A stretch of DNA of 64,000 bases from an uncultured Chloroflexota bacterium. Lineage in GTDB: Bacteria; Chloroflexota; Anaerolineae; Anaerolineales; Villigracilaceae. Positions 12,407 to 19,838 of this stretch are shown here, piece by piece (the first letter of the stretch is position 1; each line of letters starts with the position of its first letter). A program made the translations under genes and the position numbers. Under the pieces are notes generated by a model. It had not been told where the DNA came from, did not search any database, and saw nothing but the letters and a program-made list of their open reading frames with translations. Where the stretch lies: positions 1-64,000 of the forward strand of contig CAADGT010000143.1 of the NCBI GenBank assembly GCA_900696595.1, read 5' to 3'.

Positions 12407-12433
12407 GTAAGTCGGAATGACATTCCGACTTAC
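12407..12433. repeat. Perfect 13-bp palindrome overlapping the xre-cupin stop codon
   Basis: GTAAGTCGGAATG (12407-12419), one base, CATTCCGACTTAC (12421-12433). The right arm contains the stop codon of the minus-strand gene. No T-run follows, so it is not a standard terminator. It may mark the end of the gene or be a dispersed element inserted at the 3' end. Confidence 0.7.
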
Positions 12434-13035
12434 TTCTTCCAGTGCGTCGCGTGCGGTTCCTCCCCCTCGGCAAACCCCGAAATAACGATCAGGACATTCG
12501 CGACGGCGTTGGAGGGATTCTTCCAGCGATGTCTCAACTTCGAGGCGAAGAGCAAACTGTCCCCCGGTTCGAGGCGGAAGGTTTCCTTCTCCACCATGTA
12601 TTCCAAATGACCGCGCAGGCAGAAGACGAATTCATGTCCCGCATGGACGATGTCGTTGGGACCACACGAGGCGCCGCTGTCCAGCGTCAACACAAAGGGC
12701 GCGACCTGCCCGGAAAACCGCTCGCCGCCCAGGGCTTCGAACACGCCGCGCGTAAAGGGCAGGCGCGCGCGTTCGTCGCCTTTTAAAAACACAATCTGTT
12801 TCTTTTCGGATTCCACGCCAAAGAACGCGGTGATGGGAACGCCCAACGCGCCCGCCAGTTTATACAATGTGCTGACCGAGGGCGAAGTTCTGCCGCGCTC
12901 GATCATCGAAAGCGCGTTGGCGGAAAGCCCGCTGCGCGCAGCAAGCGTCCGCATGGAGACGCCGCCCGCTTCGCGCAGTTCCCTGAGCCTTGTCGCCACA
13001 TCCACCGAAATCGCATCCCTTTGAAACGCTTCCAT
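12430..13035 (-). CDS. XRE-family regulator with C-terminal cupin domain
   Basis: A 201-residue protein: helix-turn-helix at about 10-70 ('LRELREAGGVSMRTLAARSGLSANALSMIERGRTSPS' region) and a cupin at about 110-190 ('HAGHEFVFCLRGHLEYMV', 'LEPGDSLLFASKLRHRWKN'). This architecture is common in regulators of sulfur, amino-acid and polyamine metabolism where the cupin binds the effector. GGAGG is 8 nt before ATG 13035. It is divergent from the arsR-led cytochrome operon, so it may control that operon as well as itself. The effector is unknown. Confidence 0.88.
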   Translation of the reverse strand: MEAFQRDAISVDVATRLRELREAGGVSMRTLAARSGLSANALSMIERGRTSPSVSTLYKLAGALGVPITAFFGVESEKKQIVFLKGDERARLPFTRGVFEALGGERFSGQVAPFVLTLDSGASCGPNDIVHAGHEFVFCLRGHLEYMVEKETFRLEPGDSLLFASKLRHRWKNPSNAVANVLIVISGFAEGEEPHATHWKK

Positions 13036-13076: not shown

Positions 13077-13171
13077 TGTGACATTAAACAAAACTAAATA
13101 TGACACACTCCACTATTGTACAACACGCCGCGACTGTATGATGGGATTGAAATATTCGTTTATTCGCATAT
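13077..13171. promoter_or_regulatory. Divergent control region between xre-cupin and arsR
   Basis: The gap holds two direct copies of TRTGACA spaced 22 bp (TGTGACA 13077-13083; TATGACA 13099-13105), about two helical turns, and an imperfect inverted repeat ATATTCG (13152-13158) / CGCATAT (13165-13171). The direct repeats are candidate sites for the XRE protein and the inverted repeat for the ArsR protein, whose operators are usually short AT-rich dyads. A weak promoter, TTGTAC with TATGAT, faces arsR. All assignments here are inferred from position and symmetry. Confidence 0.4.
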
Positions 13172-13268
13172 AAGCAGGCAGTCATGGGCAACCGCTCATG
13201 GCGGCGTCCCCGCCGCCGGGGACTGCGGCGGGAGCATCCAGGAAAGTCATAAAAGCAGGCAGTCATGG
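13172..13268 (+). repeat. 16-bp direct repeat duplicating the arsR ribosome-binding/start region around a GC-rich palindromic element
   Basis: AAGCAGGCAGTCATGG occurs at 13172-13187 and again at 13253-13268, exactly 81 bp apart. Each copy contains a start codon; the second is the arsR start. The 65 bp between them carry a GC-rich dyad (13194-13235) that is closely related to 57347-57387 in front of ccdA. The arrangement looks like insertion of a small palindromic element with duplication of its target. Confidence 0.75.
13184..13252 (+). CDS. Possible 22-residue Arg-rich leader peptide upstream of arsR
   Basis: The first copy of the duplicated start region opens a frame at ATG 13184 that ends at TAA 13250-13252, twelve nt before the arsR ATG. 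Nine of 22 residues are Arg (MGNRSWRRPRRRG...). It has the same upstream sequence as arsR, so a ribosome could initiate here, and reinitiate at arsR. Whether it is translated or regulates anything is unknown. Confidence 0.3.
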   Translation: MGNRSWRRPRRRGLRREHPGKS

Positions 13269-13612
13269 TCTCGCCCACCCTCAAACAGGAAATCACCCAA
13301 CTCGAAGCCAATTTTTGCGCGGCGCTTTCCGATCCCAACCGGCTGTTGATCCTCTACGCCCTGAGCGACTCGCCGCGCAACGTGACCGAACTCTCCACCG
13401 AACTTGGCTTGAACCAGCCTACTGCGTCGCGTCATCTCAAAATTTTGCGCGACCGCGGGCTGGTCAACACCGCGCGCAGCGGAACCACCGTCACCTACAG
13501 CCTGACCGACCCAAGGTTGATCCAGGCGTTGGACATTATGCGCAACATCATGCGCGACCGCCTCGCCTATCAATCCAGCCTGATCAACGAAACCATACAG
13601 GAGAATGTATGA
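13265..13612 (+). CDS. ArsR-family winged-helix repressor
   Basis: A 115-residue ArsR/SmtB-like protein with 'LSDPNRLLILYALSDSPRNVTELSTELGLNQPTASRHLKILRDRGLVNTARSGTTVTYSL' core spread over residues 20-80. It has a single cysteine (near residue 18), so it lacks the two-cysteine persulfide switch known for SqrR/BigR and also a clear metal site. Its stop overlaps the start of the octaheme cytochrome gene by 4 nt (ATGA), so it is the first gene of the operon and very probably its regulator. Confidence 0.9.
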   Translation: MVSPTLKQEITQLEANFCAALSDPNRLLILYALSDSPRNVTELSTELGLNQPTASRHLKILRDRGLVNTARSGTTVTYSLTDPRLIQALDIMRNIMRDRLAYQSSLINETIQENV

Positions 13613-15048
13613 AGAACTTTCGCCTCCCTTCCTGGACTTTGGGACTCACCGGCATCATCCTGCTGATTCTCGTCCCAGTCCTTTACTTCCTCCCCCGCGC
13701 CCAGACGAAGAACGACCCCGCCGACTACCTGCCCGTCAAGCCCGTCCATGTGGATCACAGCGACATCGTCAAGGGCGAATTCAAAACGGGACAGGACGTA
13801 ACCCGCGCCTGCCTCAAATGTCACGAGGAGGCTTCCACGCAAATGATGGCGACGACTCACTGGACATGGGAATCGAAGGAATTCGACGTCCCCTGGCGCG
13901 AAGAACCCGTAACCATCGGCAAAGCCAACCAGATCAACAACTTCTGCATCGGCTCGCAGGGCAACGAAATCCGTTGCGCCACCTGTCACGCAGGCTACGG
14001 CTGGGAGGAGGGCAGGCAAATTCAACAAATCAACCCGGAGAACGTGGACTGCCTCGCCTGTCACGCGGACATGAACGTTTATACCAAAGGCGAATACGGC
14101 AACCCCGCCGAAGGCGTGGATCTGCTCGCCGCAGCGCGTTCGGTCAAATCGTCAACGCGCGAAAACTGCGGAGCCTGCCACTTCGACGGCGGCGGCGGCA
14201 ACGGCGTCAAACATGGCGACCTCGACGAAAGCCTGTACTTCCCAAACGAATCGCTCGACGTTCACATGGGCGGCGAAGCGGACATGCAATGCAGCGACTG
14301 CCACTGGACGAAAGATCACCAAATCCTCGGGCGCATGTTGGCGGACAACTACACCATCGAACCGCAGGAACAAGTTTCATGCGAGCAATGCCATGTAAAC
14401 CAACAGCATGAAGACAAACGCATCAACACCCATCTTTCTTCCGTCGCCTGCCAGACCTGTCACAGCCCCGCGCTCGCGCTCGAAGACCCGACCAAAGTCA
14501 CATGGGACTGGTCGCAAGCCGGACAGGAGGGACGCGAAGACGACCACTTCACCTATCTCAAGATCAAGGGCGAATTCACCTACGATAAAAACTTCGCGCC
14601 CACCTATCTATGGTTCAACGGAAACAACGAATACCGTTACCTGCTCGGCGATCCCATCGGCGAAAATGGCATCACCTACATCAACAAACCTGCCGGGAAC
14701 ATCGCCGACCCCGGCGCAAAAATCTTCCCCTTCAAACTTCATGTCGCGCAACAACCTTACGACATAAAAAATAATTATTTACTGCAACCCATCACCGCAG
14801 GCGAAGGCGGCTTCTGGACGACCTTCGACTGGGATAGCGCCTTCGAACTCGCGCAGGAAAGAATTGGACTCGAATACAGCGGCGAATACGGCTTCACCAC
14901 CACCTACATGTACTGGCCCACCACCCATATGGTTCAATCCGCTGAAGACGCCCTCCTGTGCGAATCCTGCCACGGCGAAAACGGGCGCATGGATTGGGAA
15001 GCGCTCGGCTACCCCGGCGACCCGATTGAGTGGGGAGGGAGGAAGTAG
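13609..15048 (+). CDS. Membrane-anchored octaheme cytochrome c, tetrathionate-reductase (Otr) family
   Basis: A 479-residue protein with one N-terminal membrane helix (about 9-29) and eight CxxCH haem sites, starting near residues 68, 123, 148, 187, 228, 258, 281 and 451. The patterns 'CATCHAGYGW', 'VDCLACHAD', 'CGACHFDGGGG..VKHGDLD', 'DVHMGG' and 'CSDCHW' match the octaheme tetrathionate reductase family, whose founding member reduces tetrathionate and also nitrite or hydroxylamine in vitro. A free Cys at about residue 113 ('NNFCIGS') is a candidate for the active-site cysteine of that family. It should sit outside the membrane, taking electrons from the cytochrome b fusion encoded next. The long open frame upstream to 13198 is ignored because arsR occupies it. 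Confidence 0.88.
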   Translation: MKNFRLPSWTLGLTGIILLILVPVLYFLPRAQTKNDPADYLPVKPVHVDHSDIVKGEFKTGQDVTRACLKCHEEASTQMMATTHWTWESKEFDVPWREEPVTIGKANQINNFCIGSQGNEIRCATCHAGYGWEEGRQIQQINPENVDCLACHADMNVYTKGEYGNPAEGVDLLAAARSVKSSTRENCGACHFDGGGGNGVKHGDLDESLYFPNESLDVHMGGEADMQCSDCHWTKDHQILGRMLADNYTIEPQEQVSCEQCHVNQQHEDKRINTHLSSVACQTCHSPALALEDPTKVTWDWSQAGQEGREDDHFTYLKIKGEFTYDKNFAPTYLWFNGNNEYRYLLGDPIGENGITYINKPAGNIADPGAKIFPFKLHVAQQPYDIKNNYLLQPITAGEGGFWTTFDWDSAFELAQERIGLEYSGEYGFTTTYMYWPTTHMVQSAEDALLCESCHGENGRMDWEALGYPGDPIEWGGRK

Positions 15049-15056
15049 GGATGTTG

Positions 15057-15095
15057 CAAGTTACGAGATACGAGTTACGAGTAACCTGTAACTTG
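15057..15095 (+). repeat. Palindromic repeat in the first intercistronic gap
   Basis: CAAGTTAC (15057-15064) pairs with GTAACTTG (15088-15095), with a nested GTTAC/GTAAC dyad. The surrounding words (GAGATACGAGTTACGAG) recur in other gaps of the window. It lies in the 80-nt gap between the octaheme and heptaheme genes. Confidence 0.6.
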
Positions 15096-15128
15096 TACCA
15101 TGTAACACGTAACCCCAAGGAATCAACC

Positions 15129-17816
15129 ATGACCAAAAAGACTCTCATCTTCATCGGACTTCTCCTCCTCGCCCTTGCCCTCGGACTTGGAACGGCACTT
15201 GCCGCGCCCGAACCTGTCCCGGACTCTCAAGCCTCGGTCCTGCACCCAGACTTCCCCCTGCTCGACGCGGACGGCGTCAACGTCCTCGAAAGCGGAGGCG
15301 CGGTCTCGGCGACGACCACCTGCGGGCAATGCCACGACACGGCGTTCATCGAATCGCACGCCTTCCACTCCGACCTCGGCTTGAGCGACTTCAACGCCCA
15401 ACGCGACAGTTTCGACTCCAGCAACGGACTTTTCGGCGAATGGGACCCGCTCGCCTACCGCTTCCTCTCCGCTGAAAACGACGAACGCTTCGACCTGGGC
15501 ACAGCCGAATGGTTGATGATCAACGGTCCCCGCGTCGTCGGAGGCGGGCCGGCGGAAACCTCCCGAAGCGGCGAAAACCTGACCGACCTCCCCGCCAGCA
15601 AGGCGAACCCCGAAACCGCAATCCTCGACGAAAACGGCAACGCCTCCATCTGGAACTGGGATCAATCCGGCACGATGGAAATGAACTGCTTCCTCTGCCA
15701 TCTCGAAAATCCAAACAACGAAGCGCGGGTCGAAGCGATCCAATCCGGCGAGTTTGGCACAGCCACAACGGTCACGCTCTTCGGCTTGAACATCGTCAGC
15801 CAAAGCGCCGAAGGCTGGGCGTACAACCCCGCCGCCTTCAACGAGAACGGCGAAATCAAAAACGAAACGCTCGGCATCCAGGACCCCACCAATGAAAATT
15901 GCGCCGCCTGTCACGGCGAAGTCCACGCCGATACGGAGACCCCGCTCACGATCAGCGCCTGCGACCTCGATTACTTCCAAACCGCCACGACCGGGCAGGT
16001 CATCGCCTCGCAGAAGATAAATGAGTCTGGCGTAAATCTCGCAGGCAAGGACGACCTGTCCCTGCCCTGGGACGTCCACGCCCAGCGCCAATTGAAATGC
16101 ACCGACTGTCACTTCGCGCCGAACAATCCCGCGCGCGCGCTCGAAGCGCAGGGATCCAACCCCGACCATCTCGTTTACGATCCGCGCAAACTGGAGATCG
16201 GCGAATATCTCGAAAGACCCGATCACAACTTTGCCCGGGGCGCAAGCGCGCAATTCAACGTCGCGCCGGAATTCAAAAGCACGATGCGCCGCTGTGAGTC
16301 CTGCCACGACACGAACAAATCGCACGCGGGCTGGCTGCCCTACAACGACCGTCACATGCAGGTCATCGCCTGCGAGACCTGTCACATCCCGCAAATGTAC
16401 GCGCCCGCCCTTTCCACTGTGGATTGGACAGTTCTAAAGACCGACGGCTCCGCCCGCTCGGAGTGCCGCGGCATCGAAGGCTCGGATACAACCGCCGATC
16501 TTGTAACCGGCTTCCAACCCGTGCTGATGCAGCGCGAAGACATCGTGGACGGCAAAATCCTGTTCGCGCCGTACAACCTGATCGCCTCGTTCTATTGGGT
16601 CTATGAAGACGCAAACAGCAATGGACGCCCGGTTCGCAAAACCGACCTCGAGGCGGTCTTCTTCGACGGCGAAACCTACGCCGCCGACATCCTCTCCGCC
16701 TTCGACGCGAACAGCGACGGCAATCTCTCCGATGCCGAACTCGTACTGGACAGCGAAGCGAAGCAAACCCTCATCGCGGGCAAACTCGAAGCGCTGGGCA
16801 TGAAAAACGTCCGCATCGAAGGGCAAATCCAACCGTATTCGATCAACCACAACATCGTGGACAGCAAGTACGCCACGCGCGATTGCGCCGCGTGTCATCA
16901 CACCGACTCGCGCGTCACCGCCCCCATCCTGCTGGCAGAGTCGGCGCCCCTCGGCGTCACCCCCACCTTCAGCGCGGACGTCAACGTGACCGCGACGGGA
17001 CGCATCATCGCCGAAGACGGCGCGCTGTACTACAGCCCGATCAACGAGAACGACAAGACCTATATCTTCGGTCACAACCGCATCGCATGGGTTGACTGGT
17101 TCGGCGCCCTGCTTTTCCTCGGAACCGTCCTCGGCGTGGGAGGTCACGCCACCTTCCGCATGATCGCGGCTCGCAAGACGGGCGGGCAATCCGTGGCGAC
17201 GAAGACCGTTTACATGTACGAAGCCTACGAACGCTTCTGGCACTGGCTGCAGACCGCCGCCATCGTCATCCTGCTCTTGACCGGGCTGGTCATCCACCGT
17301 CCGGATCTGTTCGGCGCGTTCTCATTCCGCAACATCGTTGCCGTTCATAACGTGCTTGCCGTCCTGCTGGCGCTCAACGCGCTGATCTCGATCCTCTGGC
17401 ACGTCATCAGCGGCGAGATACAACAATACATCCCGCACCCTTACGGATTCATTGACCAGATGATCGCGCAGGCAAAATATTACGTCATGGGCATCTTCAA
17501 GCATGAACCGCACCCGTTCCATAAATCCAAACAGCGCAAATTCAACCCTCTGCAAATGGTCACCTACATCGGCTTGCTCGGAGTCCTGCTCCCCCTGCAA
17601 GGACTGACCGGCATAATGATGTGGCTCGTGCAAAAAGTTCCCGCCATTCAAACCTGGTTCGGCGGCTTGACCTTCCTCGCCCCCATGCACACGATCATGG
17701 CATGGCTGTTCGCCTCGTTCATCGTCGGGCACGTCTACCTCACCACAACCGGCGCGACCCCGCTCGAAGCCATGCGCGGCATGGTGACGGGGTATGAGGA
17801 AGTGGAAGAGCATTAA
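15129..17816 (+). CDS. Heptaheme cytochrome c fused to a membrane cytochrome b (quinone-linked electron-transfer protein)
   Basis: An 895-residue protein; AAGGA lies 6 nt before ATG 15129 and a signal peptide follows (cut near 'ALAAPE'). Seven CxxCH sites occur near residues 65, 185, 258, 324, 389, 415 and 587. An EF-hand-like loop ('DANSDGNLSDAEL') sits near 527. From about 650 come a membrane helix and then a four-helix di-haem cytochrome b of the formate-dehydrogenase / thiosulfate-reductase gamma type ('EAYERFWHWLQT', 'VHNVLAVLLALNALISILWHV', 'MHTIMAWLFASFIVGHVYL'), with paired histidines. The fusion would join quinol oxidation (or quinone reduction) to extracytoplasmic haems in a single chain and exchange electrons with the octaheme protein. 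I do not recognise a standard name for this architecture. Confidence 0.85.
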   Translation: MTKKTLIFIGLLLLALALGLGTALAAPEPVPDSQASVLHPDFPLLDADGVNVLESGGAVSATTTCGQCHDTAFIESHAFHSDLGLSDFNAQRDSFDSSNGLFGEWDPLAYRFLSAENDERFDLGTAEWLMINGPRVVGGGPAETSRSGENLTDLPASKANPETAILDENGNASIWNWDQSGTMEMNCFLCHLENPNNEARVEAIQSGEFGTATTVTLFGLNIVSQSAEGWAYNPAAFNENGEIKNETLGIQDPTNENCAACHGEVHADTETPLTISACDLDYFQTATTGQVIASQKINESGVNLAGKDDLSLPWDVHAQRQLKCTDCHFAPNNPARALEAQGSNPDHLVYDPRKLEIGEYLERPDHNFARGASAQFNVAPEFKSTMRRCESCHDTNKSHAGWLPYNDRHMQVIACETCHIPQMYAPALSTVDWTVLKTDGSARSECRGIEGSDTTADLVTGFQPVLMQREDIVDGKILFAPYNLIASFYWVYEDANSNGRPVRKTDLEAVFFDGETYAADILSAFDANSDGNLSDAELVLDSEAKQTLIAGKLEALGMKNVRIEGQIQPYSINHNIVDSKYATRDCAACHHTDSRVTAPILLAESAPLGVTPTFSADVNVTATGRIIAEDGALYYSPINENDKTYIFGHNRIAWVDWFGALLFLGTVLGVGGHATFRMIAARKTGGQSVATKTVYMYEAYERFWHWLQTAAIVILLLTGLVIHRPDLFGAFSFRNIVAVHNVLAVLLALNALISILWHVISGEIQQYIPHPYGFIDQMIAQAKYYVMGIFKHEPHPFHKSKQRKFNPLQMVTYIGLLGVLLPLQGLTGIMMWLVQKVPAIQTWFGGLTFLAPMHTIMAWLFASFIVGHVYLTTTGATPLEAMRGMVTGYEEVEEH

Positions 17817-17832
17817 GAGATTAGAGATTAGA

Positions 17833-17880
17833 TAATTGGAGATTAGTACTTCTCAAGTACCAATTACCAATCTCCAATTA
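17833..17880 (+). repeat. Nested palindrome in the second intercistronic gap
   Basis: TAATTGGAGATT (17833-17844) pairs perfectly with AATCTCCAATTA (17869-17880). Inside, GTACTT (17846-17851) and AAGTAC (17855-17860) form a second hairpin. It fills the 78-nt gap before the first YeeE/YedE gene. No U-tract follows. Confidence 0.7.
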
Positions 17881-17894
17881 CCAACGGAGATTTT

Positions 17895-18440
17895 ATGACC
17901 ACACAGACTCGCAAACCGTTATTCCCCACATCCCCCAAGCCGTTCGTGCATCCGTACTTCGGCGGCATGGTGTTGGGAATCGTCCTCTTCCTTGCCCTGT
18001 TATTGACCGGCAACGGGCTCGGCTCCTCCGGCGCAACCAGCCGCTTCGTCACCGCCCTGACGGATGCCTTCGCACCCGAACATGTTGACCGCACGCCCTA
18101 TCTTTTGAAACTGGCGGGCGGCGACAAAAACCCGCTCGACGACTGGATCGTCCCCGTTTACATCGGCGCCCTGCTCGGCGGATTCGCCTCCGGCTTGCTC
18201 AACGGACGCCTGAAATTCGAGACCACCAAAGGTCCCAACATCTCGAACCGCACACGCTGGCTGATGTCCTTCCTCGGCGGCGTGATCTTCCTTTATGGCG
18301 CGCGCATGGCTCGCGGATGCACGTCAGGGCAGGCGCTGACAGGCGGCACAACCCTCTCGGCCGGCTCATGGGTGGTGATGTTCGCCATCTTCGGCGGCGC
18401 GTATGGGCTGGCGTATTTTGTAAGGAAATTGTGGAATTAA
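17895..18440 (+). CDS. YeeE/YedE family sulfur-transport membrane protein (first half)
   Basis: A 181-residue membrane protein, GGAG 5 nt before the ATG. It has about four helices and the family signature with conserved cysteine, 'GARMARGCTSGQALTGG'. YeeE/YedE proteins such as TsuA take up thiosulfate or other reduced sulfur through conserved cysteines. The partner protein downstream carries the complementary 'GGFCPTT' cysteine motif, so the two probably form one split transporter. Confidence 0.9.
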   Translation: MTTQTRKPLFPTSPKPFVHPYFGGMVLGIVLFLALLLTGNGLGSSGATSRFVTALTDAFAPEHVDRTPYLLKLAGGDKNPLDDWIVPVYIGALLGGFASGLLNGRLKFETTKGPNISNRTRWLMSFLGGVIFLYGARMARGCTSGQALTGGTTLSAGSWVVMFAIFGGAYGLAYFVRKLWN

Positions 18441-18445
18441 TTACC

Positions 18446-18537
18446 TCGTCATTGCGAGGGCGGCGCTCTTCCGCCCGAAGCAATCTCATCGCTTACGCGC
18501 GAGATTGCTTCGTCGGGCTATCGCCCTCCTCGCAAAG
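18446..18537. repeat. REP-like palindromic element in the third intercistronic gap
   Basis: Outer arms TTGCGAGGGCG and CGCCCTCCTCGCAA and inner perfect arms GAAGCAATCTC / GAGATTGCTTC form a long hairpin of about 90 nt. The 'CGTCATTGCGAG...GAAGCAATCTC' type is a widespread bacterial palindrome. It lies between the two YeeE/YedE genes. Confidence 0.8.
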
Positions 18538-18557
18538 CCGGAGGACAGGAGACTCCC

Positions 18558-19838
18558 ATGAACTTCCCCCTCCCCGAATTCATCTCCGTCAGCGCGTCGA
18601 ACCCGTGGACATACGTCGTCTTCGGACTGATCGGCTTCGCGTTTGGCTACACCCTCGAAATGTCCGGCTTCGGCGACTCTCGCAAACTGGCGGCGCAGTT
18701 CTACTTTACCGAATTGACCGTACTCAAAGTGATGTTCACCGCCATCGTCACCGCCATGGTCTTGCTCTTCGGCGCGGTCGGCTTGGGCATTTTGAATTTC
18801 AATCAGGTATGGGTCAACCCCACCTATCTCTCCTCCGGCATCCTCGGCGGCTTGATCATGGGCGTTGGCTTCATCATCGGCGGCTTTTGCCCCACCACCT
18901 CCCTCGCCTCCGCCTCCACCGGCAAAATTGACGGAATGTTCTTCATGCTGGGCGGCTTCGTCGGCGCGTTCCTCTTCGGCGAGACCGAAGTTCTCTTCGA
19001 CAACTGGTACGCCAACTCCGGCTATTTCGGGCGCGTCACGCTCGACCAGGTCTTCAACCTGCCCGTCGGCGCAGTCGTCCTGCTCGTCGTCCTGATGGCG
19101 CTCTTCATGTTCTGGGGCGCGGAGCAACTCGAACGCATCTTCGGCAAAAAAGATTTGAGCAAAGAACCCAAACTCCGTTTTGCGGGCGCGGGCGCATTAT
19201 TCGCCGCCGCCGTCGCCGTCGTGTTGATCGGCTCGCCCTCCATCGAAGACAAATATAACGCGCTTATCTTCACGCGCGCGGAGAACGAACAGCAAATCGC
19301 GTACTCGGCGGATGAAATGCTGGAAAACCGCCTCGTCTTCATCAGCCCCGCCGAAGCCTTCAAGGCTCGCTATGACCAAACGATTAACCTGATCTACCTC
19401 GACGTGCGCGCCGAAGCCGATTACAACCTGTATCACATCGAAGACGCTGTCAACGCGCCGCAAAACCGTCTCGCCGAAATTCTGCCAGTTCTGCTTGTCG
19501 AACCGCCCGCAAACTCGGTCTTCATCCTGATGAGCAACGACGAAACCGCCGCCGTCGAAGCGTGGAAATTCCTCGCCGCCTCCGCCGTGCCGAATGTTTA
19601 CATTCTCGAAGGCGGGATAAACAACTGGATAACATTCTTCGGCAAAGAGGATGAAACCCTCGCGGCTCGACCCAAGCCGGGAGCGGGCGACGACGAGTTG
19701 GCTTTTATCTTCCCTGCGGCTTTGGGCGATCGCTACGAATCGTGCAGCCCCGACCCCGTCAAGTATGAAACGCTGGAGTTCGAACAGAAGATCAAACTAC
19801 AACTCAAACGCGACAAATCCGGGGGAGGATGCGGGTAA
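18558..19838 (+). CDS. YeeE/YedE family protein with C-terminal rhodanese-like domain
   Basis: A 426-residue protein. Residues 1-230 carry five or six membrane helices and the conserved 'IIGGFCPTTSLASAS' cysteine motif of the second YeeE/YedE half. Residues about 265-375 form a rhodanese-like fold ('LIYLDVRAEADYNLYHIEDAVNAP', 'VYILEGGINNW'), but the active-site loop reads 'LMSNDETAAVEAW' with no cysteine, so sulfurtransferase activity by the usual route is not expected. Cysteines remain at 'ESCSPDP' and at the extreme C-terminus (GGGCG). Probably works with the preceding gene in sulfur uptake or sulfane-sulfur handling for the multihaem proteins. Confidence 0.88.
   Translation: MNFPLPEFISVSASNPWTYVVFGLIGFAFGYTLEMSGFGDSRKLAAQFYFTELTVLKVMFTAIVTAMVLLFGAVGLGILNFNQVWVNPTYLSSGILGGLIMGVGFIIGGFCPTTSLASASTGKIDGMFFMLGGFVGAFLFGETEVLFDNWYANSGYFGRVTLDQVFNLPVGAVVLLVVLMALFMFWGAEQLERIFGKKDLSKEPKLRFAGAGALFAAAVAVVLIGSPSIEDKYNALIFTRAENEQQIAYSADEMLENRLVFISPAEAFKARYDQTINLIYLDVRAEADYNLYHIEDAVNAPQNRLAEILPVLLVEPPANSVFILMSNDETAAVEAWKFLAASAVPNVYILEGGINNWITFFGKEDETLAARPKPGAGDDELAFIFPAALGDRYESCSPDPVKYETLEFEQKIKLQLKRDKSGGGCG

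Follow-up and report, generated by a model that had tools for sequence, protein, structure and literature searches.

In metagenomic studies, octaheme c-type cytochromes of the Otr family often serve as the marker for "tetrathionate reduction," yet the function of Otr itself has been called cryptic (PMC11024163). The Shewanella protein accepts electrons from STC and, in vitro, can reduce both nitrite and hydroxylamine (PMC4484225); haem 2 at its active site is ligated by a lysine, and its haems are of low potential, in a range similar to that of the related conduit MmcA, -100 to -450 mV (PMC11024163). Otr genes have been reported from Anaerolineae bins (PMC7887784), and an arrangement of Otr with a stand-alone cytochrome b has also been described (PMC4911364). 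Here, we report on an operon that links one Otr clade to a sulfur importer whose cysteine arm resembles that of a carrier, and that offers a testable frame for the role of Otr. It lies in a 64,000-nucleotide stretch of contig CAADGT010000143.1 (hereafter the window), from an uncultured Chloroflexota bacterium of the order Anaerolineales (GCA_900696595.1).

The operon consists of five consecutive genes on the + strand at 13265-19838. Pfam, NCBIfam and an alignment to the Shewanella structure 1SP3 confirm the five parts, their order and their strand as named in the original prediction, which had been made from the DNA alone. The functional unit starts with the predicted operator at 13152, and the otr start codon (13609) overlaps the end of arsR by ATGA.

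13152-13171, strand unspecified: predicted ArsR operator, an imperfect palindrome, ATATTCGTTTATTCGCATAT
13265-13612, + strand: arsR-type repressor gene, 115 aa, with a single invariant cysteine, Cys18 (HTH_5, E 4.1e-19; NF033788; alignment of 22 sequences)
13609-15048, + strand: otr, octaheme c-type cytochrome, 479 aa, with an N-terminal membrane anchor and eight CxxCH motifs (TIGR04315; phmmer to 1SP3)
15129-17816, + strand: fusion of a heptaheme c-type domain (seven CxxCH) to a multi-helix di-haem cytochrome b, 895 aa (PF01292, E 1.1e-23; Foldseek)
17895-18440, + strand: C half of a YeeE/YedE transporter, PmpA-like, 181 aa, with invariant Cys142 (PF04143, E 5.8e-21, positions 177-309)
18558-19838, + strand: N half of the YeeE/YedE transporter, PmpB-like, followed by two helices, a rhodanese-like domain and a GGGCG tail, 426 aa (PF04143, E 6.4e-15, positions 11-189; PF00581, E 6.9e-11)
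19344-19640, + strand: rhodanese-like domain of the preceding protein, with its catalytic cysteine replaced in the loop MSNDE (AlphaFold pLDDT about 90; rhodanese fold, Z 11.8)
19818-19835, + strand: C-terminal SGGGCG tail of the same protein, a putative SoxY-like sulfur-carrier arm (conserved GGCG end in relatives)

Conservation and spread of the five-gene order

Otr-family proteins were found in 89 of 151 relatives surveyed. The complete five-gene order is present in 51 of the 60 Otr loci that we fetched, and the last four genes in another four; the remaining loci are mostly broken by contig ends, while one (L082) encodes a different, 15-haem Otr. A second collection, built with a profile of the heptaheme protein, gave 344 relatives, among the best 80 of which 57 have all five genes and 12 have four; some genomes are shared between this set and the 60 loci. 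The original prediction would have been refuted had the cytochromes and the transporter never occurred together elsewhere. The idea that they form one unit is borne out: leaving aside loci broken off at the end of a contig, nearly all keep them together in a fixed order, and the grouping is not due to chance. In 301 genomes sampled evenly from the phylum, the heptaheme protein occurs in 13, nearly all from the order Anaerolineales, and the viral contigs searched gave no match. The conserved operon points to a sulfur trait that is widespread in Anaerolineales, among them groups from sludge, groundwater and lakes about whose energy metabolism little is known.

Copies lacking arsR were found in Parasulfuritortus cantonensis LSR1, Thiobacillus, Gallionellaceae, Rubrivivax and one Lysobacterales genome. 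All of these are metagenome bins except LSR1, an isolate carrying the four-gene unit and hence available for testing the role of Otr. In a maximum-likelihood tree, 35 operon-linked Otrs fall on one side of a branch (support 100/100) and 28 other Otrs on the other, with the proteobacterial operon-linked Otrs nested among the nearest relatives of the window. This nesting within Chloroflexota indicates that the five-gene unit, with a single origin, was transferred horizontally out of Anaerolineales. Other betaproteobacterial Otrs adjoin a stand-alone cytochrome b without YeeE. In further Anaerolineales loci (L003, L005-L007 and L011), we observed a fused form of Otr, about 750-770 aa long, with up to 15 haem motifs.

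Cytochromes, split importer and regulator

The Otr of the operon matches TIGR04315 over positions 2-440 of 440 with 540.6 bits (cut-off 375), and its whole domain aligns with 1SP3 (phmmer E 2.6e-126). All eight CxxCH motifs are present in 71 of 75 counted relatives, the other four being incomplete sequences. Counting from the 1SP3 alignment, Lys201 is the equivalent of Lys153, the haem 2 ligand, and Cys113 that of Cys64. The original prediction had named loss of the Otr active-site residues as evidence against it, but the equivalents of Asn61, Cys64 and Lys153 are kept in 78/78 operon-linked Otrs, as they are in 28/28 others, and the active site is intact throughout the operon clade. What distinguishes the clade is the position of Asp150 in 1SP3, occupied by Asn in 74 of 78 operon-linked Otrs and by Asp in 23 of the 28 others.

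As for the fusion protein, its seven CxxCH motifs are invariant across relatives, and its C-terminal part matches Ni_hydr_CYTB (PF01292) with 84.4 bits, above the cut-off of 30.1. The best NCBIfam match is the thiosulfate-reductase cytochrome b model, at 138 bits and below the cut-off of 204. The top Foldseek matches of the membrane part are 1kqf_C (FdnI) and 6g94 (HyaC, the cytochrome b of hydrogenase-1), both with a probability of 1.00, and this quinone-reactive type agrees with the earlier proposal that the fusion draws on quinol. Foldseek returned the cytochrome b part only, because the haem core is of low confidence when modelled without haems. In a profile comparison, however, the middle of the fusion matches haems 4-7 of Otr (97.2%). 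It lacks the VKHGD lysine segment of Otr, and the active-site lysine segment is likewise missing from MmcA (PMC11024163); its score against the MmcA model TIGR04314 is 43.3 bits, below the cut-off of 250. We infer that the fusion is an Otr-like haem wire joined to a quinone-reactive cytochrome b of the FdnI/HyaC type. An EF-hand-like calcium motif, DANSDGNLSDAE, is found at residues about 526-537 of this protein and is mostly conserved in relatives.

The transporter had been described as a two-part YeeE/YedE ending in a rhodanese-like domain. The split and the rhodanese fold (Z 11.8 to 3tp9_A for the AlphaFold model) hold, but the C-terminal half comes first in the operon, and the catalytic cysteine is replaced in a loop M/V-S-N-D-E, with the consensus SNDE in relatives, which precludes normal rhodanese action and keeps the domain out of the true rhodaneses. 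The first-encoded half corresponds to the C half of Sulf_transp, with Cys142, and the second to the N half, with Cys111, both cysteines being invariant in the alignments. Two proteins, one Sulf_transp half each and one conserved cysteine per half constitute a PmpAB-type pair, in which the PmpB and PmpA cysteines correspond to Cys91 and Cys293 of TsuA (PMC11582611). Consistently, the C half aligns with TsuA (6leo) with an E-value of 3.5e-6, placing Cys142 in register with the C-half cysteine of TsuA. The spacer between the two halves (18441-18557) contains a perfect 12-nt inverted repeat, CGAAGCAATCTC / GAGATTGCTTCG, which resembles a dispersed hairpin repeat.

The N-half protein has a second invariant cysteine, Cys425, in its tail. 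The protein ends in GGCG in 66/66 complete relatives from one set and in 53/54 from another, an ending shared by 0/394 other open reading frames of at least 100 aa from the same loci. The SoxY proteins of the proteobacterial hosts end in GGCGG, and the cysteine of this SoxY motif carries sulfur (PMC6067878). The tail is similar but not identical to the SoxY arm, with GGGCG or GGCG at the very end rather than GGCGG, and a Pfam scan of the tailed transporter gave Sulf_transp and Rhodanese only, without the SoxY domain PF13501. By analogy, the cysteine of the GGGCG tail, a feature that the original prediction had missed, is likely the sulfur-carrying residue. The loop before the last helix contains on average 4.5 Lys/Arg residues, against 0-2.3 in the other loops; with this loop inside, as the positive-inside rule implies, the rhodanese-like domain and the tail are predicted to face outside.

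The regulator scores 84 bits against NF033788 (cut-off 55). Its predicted 20-bp operator, first spotted by eye in the output of a palindrome search and then tested, has exactly one match with at most two mismatches in each of 10 same-genus genomes. In the window, the two matches are one site read on both strands, where 0.04 is expected by chance. With at most four mismatches, the motif is found in 51 of 61 upstream regions, compared to 0.14% of shuffles; a strict 12-2-12 ArsR palindrome was only weakly enriched. Since there is a single operator per genome, ArsR seems to control this operon alone through the predicted site. Two known regulator types were considered and rejected: a persulfide sensor of the BigR/SqrR type (48.8 bits against the BigR model, which needs 155, and no two-cysteine site) and the ArsR regulator TsoR (NF045707, 59.3 bits against a cut-off of 115), for which our literature search found only unrelated uses of those letters. 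Between the operator and the arsR start (13167-13268), the window has an 81-bp step with a GC-rich hairpin and a direct repeat of 21 nt, CATAWAAGCAGGCAGTCATGG. Since relatives have only about 10-20 bp between operator and start codon, the step appears to be a short insertion or duplication in the window's genome.

Upstream, a divergent cupin-HTH gene (12430-13035, minus strand) is a frequent neighbour, in 29 of the 60 loci, and was not counted as an operon member. Its product is PuuR-like, with a score below the cut-off, and may be a second regulator or a mere neighbour. The only other recurrent neighbours are two genes found in near relatives at the position of the window's SufR- and SufT-like pair.

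A proposed role in sulfur redox and import, and the alternatives

With moderate confidence, we read the operon as an ArsR-controlled, membrane-bound and quinone-linked module for sulfur redox chemistry and import, acting on a compound with an S-S bond outside the membrane. The cytochrome b of the fusion would exchange electrons with the (mena)quinone pool, and the seven c-haems would form a wire on the outer face leading to Otr. At its lysine-ligated haem, Otr would act on an S-S bonded compound (tetrathionate, or a thiosulfate or sulfane adduct), most likely reductively. The sulfane sulfur or thiosulfate released would be taken by the cysteine of the GGGCG tail, positioned outside the membrane by the inactive rhodanese-like domain, and then handed to the split YeeE/YedE pore, first to Cys111 and then to Cys142, for import. 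In this scheme, the genes and their conservation, the active-site residues, the tail, the operator motif and the sHdr-like cluster of the host (below) are directly observed, and we infer the topology of the tail, the flow of electrons, the substrate and the hand-over of sulfur. The scheme draws on the fixed gene order, the single clade of operon-linked Otrs with their catalytic residues retained, the type of the cytochrome b, the two transport cysteines of the split YeeE, the GGCG ending, the charge of the helix loops and the sHdr-like cluster; in addition, SoxY, a marker of sulfur oxidation, was detected in all five of the unit-bearing proteobacterial genomes that were tested. The low potentials of the Shewanella Otr haems (PMC11024163) and the reductase type of the cytochrome b speak for the reductive direction.

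What could happen to the imported sulfur is suggested by the sulfur genes sampled in the hosts. The window's genome encodes one TusA, within a cluster TusA-DsrE2-DsrE-GcvH/LbpA-like-thioredoxin-HdrC/B/A-like (L234, 8359-14019, contig C42) that resembles the sHdr-LbpA system of sulfane-sulfur oxidation and could receive the imported sulfane sulfur, TusA-DsrE2 and the sHdr/LbpA-like proteins taking it over. The host thus seems to have a cytoplasmic sulfane-sulfur pathway, whose link to the operon is suggestive. As a side observation, in many of the DsrE-family genes found in Anaerolineales the reading frame contains one TGA codon (e.g., L233 in G103, and G020:C1:2942140-2942478), which suggests selenocysteine-containing DsrE-like proteins.

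Several points weigh against our reading of the operon. No activity is known for the operon-linked Otr clade. Only about half of the relatives that have Otr also have TusA, and the acceptor in the cytoplasm is therefore not a constant one. ArsR, with Cys18 as its one invariant cysteine, lacks the two-cysteine site of the known persulfide sensors. Finally, the AlphaFold models are of medium quality, with mean pLDDT values of 74 and 71 and values below 50 in the haem core of the fusion.

The same SoxY-like tail and sHdr-like cluster, together with the sulfur-oxidizing proteobacterial hosts, favour the opposite direction. Here Otr would play the part of SoxAX or TsdA: it would join thiosulfate or sulfane sulfur to the cysteine of the GGGCG tail, and the electrons would pass by way of the heptaheme-cytochrome b to quinone. 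YeeE would import the sulfur so carried and sHdr oxidize it, giving a counterpart of SoxAX-SoxY-SoxT that works without Sox proteins. SoxY is absent from 60 of 61 relatives, in which a substitute carrier would be reasonable; nested copies of the unit occur in Thiobacillus, Parasulfuritortus and Gallionellaceae, and otr adjoins divergent soxYZ in lucinid symbionts (PMC11237559). In Betaproteobacteria, SoxY was found next to a canonical Otr in 1 of 16 loci only. However, low-potential haems such as those of Shewanella Otr (PMC11024163) are unfavourable for thiosulfate oxidation, the proteobacterial hosts already possess SoxY (5/5 tested), and the association with TusA is weak. We consider this oxidative version doubtful, though the most serious of the three competing roles weighed here.

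A slightly better, still tentative possibility applies to either direction: a Sox-independent pathway in which the transporter is equipped with an external cysteine arm like that of SoxY, Otr puts sulfur on this arm or takes it off (by S-S reduction or by the coupling of thiosulfate), and the transporter then moves the sulfur through its own pore. The operon would then encode a group-translocation machine, with protein-bound sulfur as the substrate of Otr.

Could the cytochromes have no part in sulfur respiration? Given the in vitro activity of Shewanella OTR on nitrite and hydroxylamine (PMC4484225), the operon's Otr might be an ammonifying reductase of these compounds, with a sulfur importer co-regulated for another reason, and the window's own genome indeed gave no match to NrfA. 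Yet a full NrfA accompanies the operon in many relatives (e.g., G020, G025, G031 and G032), no nitrogen gene was seen recurring beside the operon in the neighbourhoods of the 60 loci, and the tight linkage to a sulfur transporter would be left unexplained. We therefore judged nitrite reduction less likely as the main role, and indeed improbable.

The operon could instead serve sulfur homeostasis or stress, ArsR sensing reactive sulfur, the cytochromes clearing persulfide or disulfide stress and YeeE recovering sulfur for cysteine and Fe-S clusters, without energy gain. PmpAB-type pairs do mediate sulfane-sulfur uptake in other bacteria (PMC11582611), and SufR- and SufT-like genes lie directly upstream in the window, with length-matched genes at the same position in 15-17 of the 60 relatives. 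These neighbours are conserved in close relatives only, however, and 15 c-haems plus a quinone-linked cytochrome b are a large investment that points to respiration, making a pure homeostasis role unlikely, if less so than nitrite reduction.

Comparison with known systems

We found no published description of the operon, of its heptaheme-cytochrome b partner or of the tailed transporter in the open-licence literature, while each part has known relatives. Shewanella oneidensis OTR (1SP3) and the operon's Otr share full-length homology, eight CxxCH motifs, the lysine ligand of haem 2, and the active-site residues Cys64 and Asn61. The operon's Otr differs in forming a separate clade, in the change of Asp150 to Asn (74/78) and in its hydrophobic N-terminal anchor; it also has a dedicated heptaheme-cytochrome b and transporter where Shewanella OTR uses the CymA/STC network. 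Thermosulfurimonas (TDIS_1882/1883; PMC4911364) and Betaproteobacteria also pair Otr with a dedicated cytochrome b from the family seen in the operon, but there the cytochrome b lacks the heptaheme domain and no clear YeeE/YedE relative lies nearby in the loci examined. Like MmcA of Methanosarcina, an electron conduit (PMC11024163), the heptaheme domain has an Otr-like core with seven haems and no active-site lysine, but it is fused to a cytochrome b and scores only 43 bits against the MmcA model (cut-off 250).

PmpA and PmpB (PMC11582611) are likewise half-transporters, which have one conserved cysteine apiece and correspond to the C half and the N half of TsuA, respectively; the operon's N half adds two helices, the cysteine-less rhodanese-like domain and the GGGCG tail. 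With SoxY/SoxT, the operon shares a C-terminal glycine-rich cysteine arm and a YeeE-like importer, and probably the logic of an external carrier followed by import; it differs in that the arm comes without a SoxY domain, ends the protein and is fused to the transporter itself. The YTD cluster of sulfur disproportionators also employs a YedE-like importer in sulfur metabolism. The operon contains neither TusA nor DsrE, which in the host belong to the separate sHdr-like cluster, and a YTD-type importer was rejected for lack of these two in the operon. Built from known parts, the operon is a new combination.

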